A DNA stretch of 64,000 nt from Dysgonomonadaceae bacterium PH5-43 (GTDB lineage: Bacteria > Bacteroidota > Bacteroidia > Bacteroidales > Azobacteroidaceae): the NCBI GenBank assembly GCA_029916745.1, contig JARXWK010000013.1:1-64000 (forward strand), in the 5' to 3' direction. Of the stretch, positions 4,972 to 55,151 are shown piece after piece. The translations under genes and the position numbers were made by a program. Positions within the stretch are counted from its first letter, which is position 1. Every line of letters begins with the position of its first letter. The notes under the pieces were generated by a model, which saw nothing but the letters and a program-made list of their open reading frames with translations, was not told the origin of the DNA and searched no databases.

Positions 4972-5245
4972 AAAATGCAAAGCTTCACTTAGGGTCGTCT
5001 CTCTACTAAGAGACCCCTCGTGTCTCTACTAAGAGAGGCGATGTCTCTCTACTAAGAAAGGCGGGGTGCTTTAAGGATTAAGGCGGGGTGGTTCTACTAA
5101 GAGCGACATCGGGTATCTACTAAGAACGGCAAGGGGTCTCTACTAAGAAGCACCTCGCCTATCTAATAACAAAGGCAAGAGGTTTATACTGAGATAGATG
5201 AGGGCGTTCTGCTAACTACCTGGTTGCCTATTTACTAAGAGCGTT
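4972..5245 (+). repeat. Family 1 intergenic 23-bp array, copy 1
   Basis: The left border AAGCTTCACTTAGGGTCG is at 4980-4997. After it, cores of the form CTACTAAGA begin at 5003, 5026, 5049, 5094, 5117, 5140, 5163 (CTAATAACA), 5186 (degenerate), 5209 (CTGCTAACT) and 5232. The spacing is 23 bp throughout, apart from one degenerate unit between 5049 and 5094 (45 bp). The full core is the quasi-palindrome TCTCTACTAAGAGA followed by a 9-bp G/C-rich linker. The array fills the space between the convergent gapA and mutB terminators. The period is not a multiple of three and there is no ORF, so it is not coding. The first three units are all in the ACTA orientation. Confidence 0.95.
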
Positions 5246-10984: not shown

Positions 10985-11254
10985 ATGAACAAATCTGAAT
11001 TAGTTGCAGCTATAGCTGCCAAAACGGGCTTTACTAAAGTTGATGCATTAAAAGCTCTTAACGCTTATGTTGAAGTTGTAGGAGATGAATTGAGAAAAGG
11101 GAATAAAGTAAATTTAGTTGGTCATGGTACTTACTTGATTATTTCTAAAAAAGGAAGAAAAGGGATAGATCCTCGTAATCAACAACCTATTGAAATTGCT
11201 CCAAAACGAATGGTAAAGTTTAAACCAGGTAAAACTCTAACTATTAAGAAATAG
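10985..11254 (+). CDS. HU-family DNA-binding protein
   Basis: This 89-residue protein is a full-length HU/IHF-type nucleoid protein. It has the N-terminal helices MNKSELVAAIAAKTGFTKVDALKALNAY, the beta core VNLVGHGTYLI, and the DNA-binding arm region GRKGIDPRNQQPIEIAPKRMVKFKPGKTL. It forms dimers that bend DNA. It is separated from the alkaline phosphatase gene by 86 bp of AT-rich sequence and is probably transcribed on its own. Confidence 0.95.
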   Translation: MNKSELVAAIAAKTGFTKVDALKALNAYVEVVGDELRKGNKVNLVGHGTYLIISKKGRKGIDPRNQQPIEIAPKRMVKFKPGKTLTIKK

Positions 11255-11378: not shown

Positions 11379-11530
11379 TGTTGTTTTAATAGATAGATAG
11401 TTGATTGAAATTTCATTTTTTGATTATTCTGTTTCAGATGTATTTTATTCCGTTTCAAAGAAAATTAAAATGCAACAAATGAATAATCCATTACGTTTGT
11501 ACTGTAATAGAAAAAAGATTGTTAGATTAA

Positions 11531-12847
11531 ATGAAAAAGATTGTTTTAAGTTTGTTTTTAGGTTTTACTGTTCTGTTAGCTTCTGCGCAGACTACTCCGG
11601 TTGCTGAAAATGCAACTGGAGTTATAAGGTTTTCGTTAAACGAATGTTTAGAATATGCTTTCGGTAATAATTTTACCAGAAAGAATATGTTATTAAACGA
11701 AACAGTAAAACAAGAGGTGTACGACCAATCTAAATTGGAACGATTGCCTAATGTGAACGCTTCTTTAAGCGAAAACTGGCGACACTCCGATGATGCTGGT
11801 TCTTCGCTCGGAGGTAGTTATGGTATTAGTGCAGGAGTTACTTTATATCAAGGTGGTGCTATAACAAATACCATAGAAGAAAATAAATTGCAGATGGAGC
11901 AAACACAACTGCAAACAAAACAGTATGAAAATGATTTGGTAATAAATATACTTGAGTCGTTTCTTACAGTTTTGGGTAATGAAGAACTATTGAAGTATCA
12001 GCATACTTTGTTGACAGCAAGTGAAGAACAGGTAGCGCAAGGTAAGGCTCAATATATGGCAGATGAGATTCTCGAGAGTGATTACTTAATGTTGGAAGCT
12101 CAGTATGCAAGCGATAAAGCAAATATTATTGATACCGAAATTGCTCGCGACAATAGTTTACTTAATCTTAAAAGTTTGTTGTCGATGGACCCGGAAGTGG
12201 ATTTACGTATTATTTATCCCGATACGGCTATTCTTCAGCAGATGACGTTAATTCCTTTGCGAGAAACTGTAATAGAAAGAGCTATTGAAACGTGGCCAGA
12301 CCTTAAGATTAGTCAATACGATGTTGATATTGCCAATGTAAATGTAAAGATAGCTAAGGCTTCATACTTTCCAACAGTAAGCTTGTCGGGTAGTGTAAAT
12401 TCGGGGCACAACAAAAACTTTCAGAATTTTGGAAATCAGTTGAAGAATAATCTTAACGAACAAATAGGATTGTCTGTTAGTGTTCCTATTTGGGATAGGG
12501 GTCGCACAAAATTACAAACTACTCAAAGTAAGATAGCTCTTCAACAGGCAGAGAATAATAAACAACAGACCGAACTTGAAATAAGACAACAGATAACTCA
12601 ACAGCATCTTAATGTAACGTCGGCACTTAATAAATACAATACAAACGAAATAAAACACAAGGCATATTCTCAAACGTTTGATGTGTATAGGGCTTTGTTT
12701 AATGCCGGTTCAATTACGGCAGTAGACCTTCTTCAACAACAAAACAACTATATAAGTGCTCTTACTGATTATGTGCAGAGTAAATATAATTTTATTCTAA
12801 GAAGAAAAATACTTGATGTATATATGGGTATAGATGTAACAATGTAA
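11531..12847 (+). CDS. TolC-family outer membrane efflux protein
   Basis: This 438-residue protein has a signal peptide (KKIVLSLFLGFTVLLASAQ) and the two-fold repeated coiled-coil/beta-barrel pattern of outer membrane efflux proteins. It begins with SLNECLEYAFGNNFT, and an equivalent second repeat begins around residue 245 (ERAIETWPDLKISQYDVDIANVN). It is expected to form the trimeric outer-membrane channel of the exporter encoded by the next three genes, which lie on the same strand 36 bp downstream. Confidence 0.93.
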   Translation: MKKIVLSLFLGFTVLLASAQTTPVAENATGVIRFSLNECLEYAFGNNFTRKNMLLNETVKQEVYDQSKLERLPNVNASLSENWRHSDDAGSSLGGSYGISAGVTLYQGGAITNTIEENKLQMEQTQLQTKQYENDLVINILESFLTVLGNEELLKYQHTLLTASEEQVAQGKAQYMADEILESDYLMLEAQYASDKANIIDTEIARDNSLLNLKSLLSMDPEVDLRIIYPDTAILQQMTLIPLRETVIERAIETWPDLKISQYDVDIANVNVKIAKASYFPTVSLSGSVNSGHNKNFQNFGNQLKNNLNEQIGLSVSVPIWDRGRTKLQTTQSKIALQQAENNKQQTELEIRQQITQQHLNVTSALNKYNTNEIKHKAYSQTFDVYRALFNAGSITAVDLLQQQNNYISALTDYVQSKYNFILRRKILDVYMGIDVTM

Positions 12848-19733: not shown

Positions 19734-19850
19734 ATTGTTAAATAGCTAAGCCATTCGCTCGCCGTACGGCTAACTTTTATCTTTTAGTTTTTAACTTGTG
19801 CGAAGCACCAGTTCTTAGTTTTTCACTCTTAGTTCTTAGTTCAGAAAAAA
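19734..19850 (+). other. Left flank of Family 1 copy 2
   Basis: This non-coding segment contains short palindromes (GCCGTACGGC at 19761-19770) and repeated TTCTTAGTT units. The stretch around 19810-19843 is nearly the same as the left flank of Family 1 copy 4 (54829-54858), so it belongs to a longer form of that element. Confidence 0.6.
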
Positions 19851-20114
19851 AAGCTTCACTTAGGGTCGCCTCTCTTAGTAGAGACCCCTCGTGTCTCTAC
19901 TAAGAGAGGCGATGCCTCTCTACTAAGAACGATGGGGTGTCTTAAGTATAAAGACGAGACCGTTCTACTAAGAGCGACATCGGGTATCTACTAAGAACCA
20001 GCTCGCCTATCTACTAACAAAGACGAGGGGTATCTACTAAGAGCGACAAGGGGTATCTAATAACAAGCAACTCACCTCTCTGCTAAGAGCGAAAAGGGAG
20101 TTCAACAGAGAGCA
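19851..20114 (+). repeat. Family 1 intergenic 23-bp array, copy 2
   Basis: The left border AAGCTTCACTTAGGGTCG is at 19851-19868. The first unit is flipped (TCTCTTAGTAGAGA, with TAGT in the centre) although its neighbours on both sides match copy 1. Later cores start at 19897, 19920, 19965, 19988, 20011, 20034, 20057 and 20080, with a degenerate unit at 20103. The period is 23 bp, with one degenerate 22-bp unit. It lies between the convergent ACT-domain gene and the secreted-protein gene. Confidence 0.95.
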
Positions 20115-20409
20115 GCGAAGTGCTTCGCAAGAGAGATAGAGCCGTCCATTTGTTCAGTCGCTCAATTTTACGTTCCTCTCCGAGAGTTAAGAGATTACAT
20201 ATAGTTGCCTATTGAGGGTAGTTTACTAACTATCTTACCTCTTCTATTAAATGACGCAAAGGGGTGATAATATCAAAATAATAGAGAAAATAGAAGTTTT
20301 GTAAAAATAAGTAAGCCGAGAAAATGTCGAGAATTTGAGTGAAATAGAAAAAAGGAACGATAAAGCTTTAGCTTAATAGCTACTTTTATTTACAGCAATA
20401 ATATATTTT
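20115..20409. other. Non-coding region right of Family 1 copy 2
   Basis: It opens with the palindrome GCGAAG-TG-CTTCGC (20115-20128). No ORF of useful length, RNA gene or strong terminator was seen in the rest, which is AT-rich. Confidence 0.4.
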
Positions 20410-32905: not shown

Positions 32906-33132
32906 AAAATGCAAAGCTTCACTTAGGGTCGTCTCTCTACTAAGAGACCCCTTCTCTCTCTTAGTAGATAGGCGAGGTCTCTCTTAGTAGAAAGACGGGG
33001 TGTCTTAAGTATAAAGGCGGGGCGGTTCTATAAAGAGCGGCATCGGGTCTCTACTAAGAAGCACCTCGTCTATCTAGTAAGAGCGGCGAGGGGTATCTAG
33101 TAACAACGACAGGGGTGTTCTTATAATAAAGG
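32906..33132 (+). repeat. Family 1 intergenic 23-bp array, copy 3
   Basis: It has the left border as in copy 1, then a forward core starting at 32937 and two flipped cores (CTCTTAGTAG at 32958 and 32981), a degenerate unit near 33004, and forward cores at 33028, 33051, 33074 (CTAGTAAGA), 33097 (CTAGTAACA) and 33120 (degenerate). Core centres keep the 23-bp register whatever the orientation. The first forward core and first flipped core can pair into a 14-bp hairpin. It lies between the convergent gcvT and S41 protease genes. Beyond 33168 the sequence up to the next gene holds nothing recognisable. Confidence 0.95.
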
Positions 33133-33168
33133 CAAGATAGTTTGAATAACTTCCTTGCCTTTATTATA
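33122..33168 (-). terminator. Terminator of the S41 protease gene
   Basis: A perfect 15-bp stem is formed by TATAATAAAGGCAAG (33122-33136) and its complement (33154-33168). It overlaps the last degenerate unit of Family 1 copy 3. Confidence 0.75.
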
Positions 33169-54604: not shown

Positions 54605-54858
54605 ACTCTATTTGCTTATTAGTTCTACTTAAAAATGAAGTACATAAATCTAACCAATTATAAAATGAAACGCTTTTGTAATTTAATGCTTTGAGTTTAA
54701 TACAATATTGGTTTCAATAATCAAAACAAAGATAATAACTTTTATATAGTTTATAGTCTTTTTACATAAAAAAGCACCTAATCAACCGATTAAGTGCTTG
54801 CTCTCAAGTTGCTATTTAAGGTAATAGTTCTTAGCCTTTCACTCTTAGTTCTTAGTTC
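54605..54858. other. Leader of BspA-like gene 1 and orphan copy of its 3' tail
   Basis: Positions 54771-54858 carry a hairpin of the same sequence family as the bspA terminators, followed by a degraded version of the region that precedes those genes' 3' ends (TATTTAAGGTAATAG against CCTTTAAGGTAGTTT). There is no coding sequence. It looks like the leftover 3' end of a third paralogue, and Family 1 copy 4 follows directly. Confidence 0.6.
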
Positions 54859-55095
54859 AAAATGCAAAGCTTCACTTAGGGTCGTCTTTCTACTAAGAGA
54901 CCCCTTCTCTCTCTTAGTAGAAAGGCGAGGTGTCTCTTAGTAGAAAGACGGGGTGTCTTAAGGATAAAGGCGGGGAGGTTCTACTAAGAGCGGCAGGGGG
55001 TATCTACTAAGAAGCAGCTCACCTATCTAGTAACAACGACAGGGGGTATCTACTAAGAAGTGGCTCGCCTATCTAGTAACAACGGCAAGGGGGGG
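54859..55095 (+). repeat. Family 1 intergenic 23-bp array, copy 4
   Basis: It has the left border as in copy 1, then a forward core starting at 54890 and flipped cores at 54911 and 54934, a degenerate unit, and forward cores at 54981, 55004, 55027 (CTAGTAACA), 55050 and 55073. Centres stay on the 23-bp period. The first forward and first flipped cores can form a 14-bp hairpin with a 7-9 nt loop. The array ends in a run of ten G residues (55089-55098). It lies downstream of BspA-like gene 2. Confidence 0.95.
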
Positions 55096-55121
55096 GGGAA
55101 GATAGGAGAGGGCGAATAAAA

Positions 55122-55151
55122 AAAGCACCTAATCGATTGATTAAGTGCTTT
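55122..55151 (-). terminator. Terminator of BspA-like gene 2
   Basis: The hairpin is the same as at 53324-53353 and is followed by a T-run on the minus strand. Confidence 0.85.

Follow-up and report, generated by a model that had tools for sequence, protein, structure and literature searches.

The four 23-bp arrays in this stretch of DNA are very probably the minisatellites at the center of a non-autonomous transposon family, in effect large MITEs, whose spread took place in this one lineage. In its fullest form, class B, the element would span ~735–760 bp, which is long for a MITE, and would comprise, in order, GTAACTATTCAG, an AT-rich leader, a border, about ten 23-bp units, a tail of ~250 bp and CTGAATAGTTAC. 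Its insertion would duplicate 9 bp of the target, as seen in three of the four copies that retain both ends. Class A has the same border and array with a different right end, and its movement is presumed. Most copies, located in spacers, appear old and decayed. The initial annotation had listed a non-autonomous mobile element among several possibilities; this proposal is now favored by the terminal inverted repeats (TIRs) and 9-bp target site duplications (TSDs) of class B, by the copy number and by the absence of coding capacity in class B. The following features are recognized in the window, i.e. the whole stretch of 64,000 nucleotides analyzed, which corresponds to contig C13:1-64000.

4972–5255, plus strand: class A copy made of AAAATGCA, the border (4980) and about ten units; right end approximate
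4980–4997, plus strand: left border AAGCTTCACTTAGGGTCG of this first copy
5002–5240, plus strand: ten core positions of this copy (5002, 5025, 5048, 5093, 5116, 5139, 5162, 5185, 5208 and 5231)
19851–20383, plus strand: class B copy with border, array and a tail containing GAGCCGTCCATTTGTTC at ~20139
32906–33165, plus strand: class A copy with a terminal hairpin GGCAAGATAG..CTTCCTTGCC (~33131–33159)
54859–55115, plus strand: class A copy between near-identical terminator-like hairpins (hairpins by eye)

The border AAGCTTCACTTAGGGTCG is confirmed at 4980, 19851, 32914 and 54867. The four arrays first reported thus stand, while three of the starts given for them (4972, 32906 and 54859) were 8 bases too early. 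In three of these copies AAAATGCA precedes the border; the copy at 19851 lacks it. Period 23 was reported independently for all four arrays by Tandem Repeats Finder, and cores counted with up to three mismatches number 10, 10, 8 and 8, the third array showing one more chance match past its end. The units had been described as lying exactly 23 bp apart, which holds throughout except for one 45-bp double step found at the identical place in all four arrays; in the first array, the core is divergent in the unit that falls between 5048 and 5093. The G+C richness pointed out at the outset is confirmed, with values of 0.45–0.50 in the four arrays vs 0.26–0.39 in the 300-base flanks. The copy at 4980 sits between two convergent genes, the left of which is presumably gap-like, and has terminator-like hairpins to its left and right (by eye). 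The hairpins AAAAAAGCACCTAATC..GATTAAGTGCTT that bracket the fourth array, at ~54768–54799 and ~55118–55150, are near-identical. The right end of the copy at 19851 (~20372–20383) has two mismatches to CTGAATAGTTAC; no left terminal repeat was found for this copy, which leaves its leader upstream of 19851 with no defined start.

The family extends well beyond these four copies. In the organism's own draft genome (2,537,984 bases in 46 contigs), the border has 84 matches with up to two mismatches, split 46 to 38 between the strands, vs none for a reversed-pattern control, which argues against chance. Tail, left-end, array and profile searches yielded six extra copies with altered borders (L086, L087, L088, L089, L091 and C26:2494-2167), for a total of ~90. 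The start of L093 is, by eye, the sequence that ends L029, and these two contig ends were therefore counted as one copy. A further candidate, L092 at C9:44143, was discarded as no array is seen there.

Outside this genome, the border is found in none of 37 other genomes of the genus. A profile (R1) run on 44 further genomes of the family and on 148 more sampled across the order gave no convincing copy. The order-wide profile search used strict filters, with no more than 22 candidates being scored in any genome, and recovered 22 copies in the organism's own genome; it points weakly to absence across the order. Many of the genomes covered at these three levels are incomplete, and strongly diverged relatives could have escaped the searches. 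Two exact 17-mer matches in other genomes (L084 and L085) have no array behind them and are attributed to chance. In the case of G018, a genome of the same genus, a match at E=0.003 (L128) was rejected as a member, since it has no border, a period of 22 and a single array of 3.8 units (AAAAGGGGCGGTTCTTTTACCG). This array occupies the gap that follows a reading frame, its palindromic core and G-rich linker resemble those of the 23-bp family, and its unit occurs at one place only in the 20 stretches (166 kb) of G018. A second 22-bp array (AATTTCTCACCCGTGAGCGGAA) is present twice on the G018 contig carrying the 3.8-unit array; the arrays of this genome (L146:4086-4169, 10986-11122 and 11480-11591) are of two kinds, both with palindromic cores. 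The 22-bp array of G018 may yet be distantly related to the 23-bp family. The open PMC papers searched gave no account of the family, also when searched by the element's sequence strings.

The regularity of the array is a property of the whole family. Identity over 79 copies reaches 0.576 at lag 23, 0.536 at lag 46 and 0.489 at lag 69, against a median of 0.232 over lags 5–79, and the number of units varies from ~3 to 12 (by eye). Linkers had been noticed to recur between arrays, and they do so at the matching ordinal position in the 39 copies compared over their first five units, a sample of the copies and of their length. This common linker order suggests that the array would have grown before it dispersed. 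The initial exclusion of a CRISPR array also holds, since linkers are common to copies and units diverge, in place of the unique spacers between near-identical repeats of such an array.

Two classes are distinguished by their right ends. Class B accounts for 33 of the 84 border copies and has a long tail beginning with GAGATAGAGCCGTCCATTTGTCC; pairwise identity between tails has a median of 84% (range 0.742–0.975). The remaining 51, some of them truncated by a contig end or a deletion, have no long tail and form class A. Some of these start with TTATTGTTGTATTTTTCTCCTAAAAATGCA, a subset finish with CCTTTTACTAAGATTGTTTTA..ATAGCAATAA, and in some the core TACTAAGA recurs beside the right end. Leaders consist of several variable modules, and some are themselves dispersed repeats, which makes the left boundary of many copies ambiguous. 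For example, the AT-rich dispersed repeats TTTTTAGTTTTTAACTTTTATC, AACTTGTGCGAAGCACACC and GGAGACGCGGCACGCCACGTCTCTACTGTGCATTGCGATTGGC occur upstream of arrays, as in the class B leader at 19735–19850 of the window, and some of them also flank an IS4-family transposase on contig C8 (L144). Among individual copies, L074 (C4:12133) is divergent, with first cores TTTGATAGGAGATA, and may represent an earlier offshoot of the family. At L071 (end of C37), L090 (end of C16) and L049 (start of C37), the array or tail runs into a common CCTGAGTTTCGTTTAAG, probably the terminus of a different insertion sequence that inserted into array elements. Several contigs of the draft break off within arrays or insertion sequences.

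Evidence for transposition comes from the few copies that are complete. The ends of class B were assessed on 36 copies (33 plus three extras). A recognizable tail end is present in 34 of these, and duplications could be scored in 27. Complete ends are rare, being kept by four of the 36 (L010, L041, L070 and L083). In these four, the left end GTAACTATTCAG lies 201–223 bases before the border with one mismatch each, and the right end CTGAATAGTTAC stops 528–550 bases after it with one to three mismatches. Three of them have 9-bp duplications at their flanks, with eight of nine positions in agreement, namely TATTGTTAG/TATTGTCAG in L010, CCTAAATAG/CCTAAATTG in L041 and TAAATATTT/CAAATATTT in L070; L083 has none (four mismatches). 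Such duplications are found in 3/27 scored copies vs 0.8% of trials in which right flanks were swapped between copies. Of 54 class A copies, both candidate ends are present in four, the best duplication among them matching at five of nine positions, no better than the control. Terminal inverted repeats are thus clear in class B (with TSDs in 3/4 both-ended copies) and weak in class A (4/54 copies, TSDs in 0/4). Because TSDs occur in class B and none in class A, transposition is established for class B and can only be inferred for class A.

The element occurs in multiple copies with no transposase gene. The longest stop-to-stop frame in the 33 class B copies, the class in which frames were measured, is 49–79 amino acids, and tblastn of the genome's three IS4-family transposases against 84 elements gave no match at E<1. 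As the element codes for nothing recognizable, the transposase must have acted in trans. The mobilizing enzyme would most likely be of the IS4 family, a choice guided by the three IS4-family transposases of this genome, by the 9-bp duplications of two of their elements and by a few array elements with similar ends. The IS4-family element of contig C26 is intact, with a 404-amino-acid transposase carrying the DDE_Tnp_1 and DUF4372 domains (199 bits on NCBIfam transpos_IS4_1, cut-off 115), a perfect 18-bp TIR TATTACTGTCCGATAAAA and a 9-bp TSD GTTGAGAAT. The transposases on contigs C3 and C8 have 27–28% identity and score 287 and 235 bits on the same model; the C3 element has AGAATCAAA on either side, an apparent 9-bp duplication (by eye).

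The C26 element has ends similar to those of a few array copies. The copy C26:2494-2167 finishes in TTTTATCGGACGGCAATAA, one mismatch from the searched pattern and two from the C26 end; L006 and L008 match that end over 21–26 bp at a weak E=0.005, and L006 and L078 match an end-like stretch within the C26 element at E=0.065. No autonomous element with GTAACTATTCAG ends is known in this genome, and none of the facing pairs among 35 GTAACTATTCAG-like sites (up to one mismatch) encloses any of the three IS4-family transposases. The family therefore resembles an IS4-derived MITE in being non-coding, in having some ends like those of the C26 element and in sharing its 9-bp TSDs, and differs by the minisatellite inside and by main ends for which no autonomous partner was found among the three IS4-family transposases. 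A 145-bp mini-element (L086, C3:125562-125706) with IS4-type ends TTATTGCTGTCCGATAAAA (zero and one mismatch) adjoins a very short array copy, and further IS4 ends of the TTATTGCTGTCCGATAAAA type are present elsewhere, e.g. at C23:46637-46696.

The genomic placement of the copies is not uniform. With genes called by a simple codon-usage script rather than a curated annotation, and for the 84 border copies without the six extras, the initial 200 array bases are free of called genes in 83, the exception being L078+; at L023, the upstream gene call reaches 13 bases into the border. Of the 40 class A copies for which the genes on both sides are known, 18 lie between convergent genes; for other spacers of 80 bp or longer the figure is 4/43 (p=0.00035). 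Class B (5/32) does not differ from this background (p=0.48). The gene to the right is a minus-strand gene in 30/42 class A vs 12/32 class B copies (p=0.005). In an alternative reading, class A would be a domesticated 3′-end element, whatever its origin, serving like BIME/REP sequences as a two-way terminator or topological insulator between convergent genes. The initial annotation had set these arrays apart from REP/BIME elements; the family shares a palindromic, intergenic character and the enrichment of class A at convergent pairs with such elements, and departs from them by its long regular array, common linker order, TIRs and TSDs. A degenerate hairpin pattern GGCAAGG..CCTTGCC (up to three mismatches) is present in 17 of 51 class A copies, at the right end in 10 of these 17 (by eye) and mostly ahead of a T-rich stretch, but it is missing from the other 34. 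Moreover, the copy at 4980 is already bracketed by separate terminator-like hairpins (by eye), the background for convergent genes is a small sample (43) resting on simple-script gene calls, and a survival bias among insertions would produce the same distribution. Domestication at 3′ ends is thus rather unlikely, and selective survival of insertions explains the placement of class A: elements would have inserted and then been selected against at harmful sites, leaving class A mostly between convergent genes.

The initial statement that no element of this form had been described proved wrong. BrickBuilt, a MITE of Porphyromonas gingivalis, shares the same plan, with tandem 23-nt repeats placed within a leader and a tail and small inverted ends; the part of its description available reports 19 copies, all intergenic, with IS5-type TIRs and TSDs of 2–5 bp (Klein et al. 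2015, PMC4596501). Likenesses to that description include imperfect, spacerless 23-nt tandem repeats with one half more variable than the other, differing and often partial leader and tail modules, an intergenic and non-coding nature, restriction to a narrow lineage, and predicted stem-loops (PMC4596501). The central 23-nt repeat is matched here in period (Tandem Repeats Finder and autocorrelation), and the intergenic location in 83/84 border copies. The IS5-type TIR GAGACCTTTGCA / TGCAAAGGTCTC is found in none of the 84 copies (up to one mismatch), ends here being GTAACTATTCAG or IS4-like, which speaks against membership in BrickBuilt. TSDs of 9 bp vs 2–5 bp and ~90 copies vs 19 are further differences (PMC4596501), as are, relative to the available description, the two right-end classes and the flipped cores. 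The array family may therefore be said to work like BrickBuilt by likeness of description, the comparison being one of plan and not of unit sequence. A P. gingivalis-like genome, sought by the end of MITE239, was not found among 393 genomes of the order. Two contigs (start of C24, L042; end of C7, L057) finish in TTAACGTGAGTTCGATATAAG..., which resembles the P. gingivalis MITE239 end ACGTGAGTTCGATATAAAGGAA given in the same source (PMC4596501).

An extended reading makes the minisatellite MITE a recurrent architecture, in which IS5-type ends in Porphyromonas and IS4-type ends here would have independently captured 23-bp palindromic arrays, the array itself being useful to the element (e.g. as reiterated transposase or host-factor sites) and class A being co-opted later between convergent genes. 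Taken as a whole, this scenario is unlikely. A DNA-binding array maintained by selection for a bound protein, such as a nucleoid protein or one acting at partition or transposase sites, would account for the conserved palindromic core, the regular 23-bp spacing at ~90 loci and the reappearance of the core TACTAAGA close to the right end in part of class A, but 23 bp is a non-integer number of helical turns and the number of units ranges from ~3 to 12 (by eye), which makes such a role very unlikely.

The least probable alternative, transcription of the arrays as structured non-coding RNA, draws on arrays out-folding their dinucleotide shuffles in 16 sampled copies (z of -1.84 and -2.13 for the window copy) and on the transcription reported for BrickBuilt loci, one of which overlaps a putative sRNA in the available account (PMC4596501), but the folding excess is equal on the two strands (mean z -4.0 and -4.3 over 16 copies), as expected of palindromic DNA, two-sided changes affect 1 of 22 consensus pairs (RNAalifold on the first 133 bases of 39/84 copies) and Rfam gives no match at gathering threshold in the window. 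Equal folding on both strands and a single covarying pair favor palindromic DNA over a conserved RNA fold, which weakens the earlier suggestion of a source of structured RNA.

The non-autonomous transposon family, which remains the preferred explanation, also carries traces of later changes within its arrays. Among exact cores, the reverse complement TCTTAGTAGA replaces TCTACTAAGA in 23/75 for unit 1, 42/62 for unit 2 and 5/76 for unit 3, compared with 1/228 for units 4–10. The commonest flanks in unit 1 are identical for both core forms, which indicates an in situ inversion of the core. The spacer that separates two short inverted repeats can be inverted by template switching, as described in the part of the literature consulted (PMC8604942), and cores of units 1–3 may have been flipped in this way after the array had formed. 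The longer arms predicted for flipped cores by this model appear as a trend only, with flips in 22/97 cores with at least two extra pairs vs 49/344 below that (p=0.06). A third form of the unit-1 core, CTTACTAC, is present in L002, L020, L024 and L043 and differs from the flipped form by two G-to-C changes.

The family thus provides a second case, with far more copies, of a minisatellite inside a non-autonomous transposon, and target duplications reveal its movement. Its different ends mean that the 23-bp plan is peculiar neither to P. gingivalis nor to IS5-type ends, and, compared with BrickBuilt as far as the latter's description goes, it combines these different ends with a higher copy number and a clearer record of jumps. 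With ~90 copies in the same register and cores flipped in place, it also constitutes a natural record of apparent small template-switch inversions in a bacterium.
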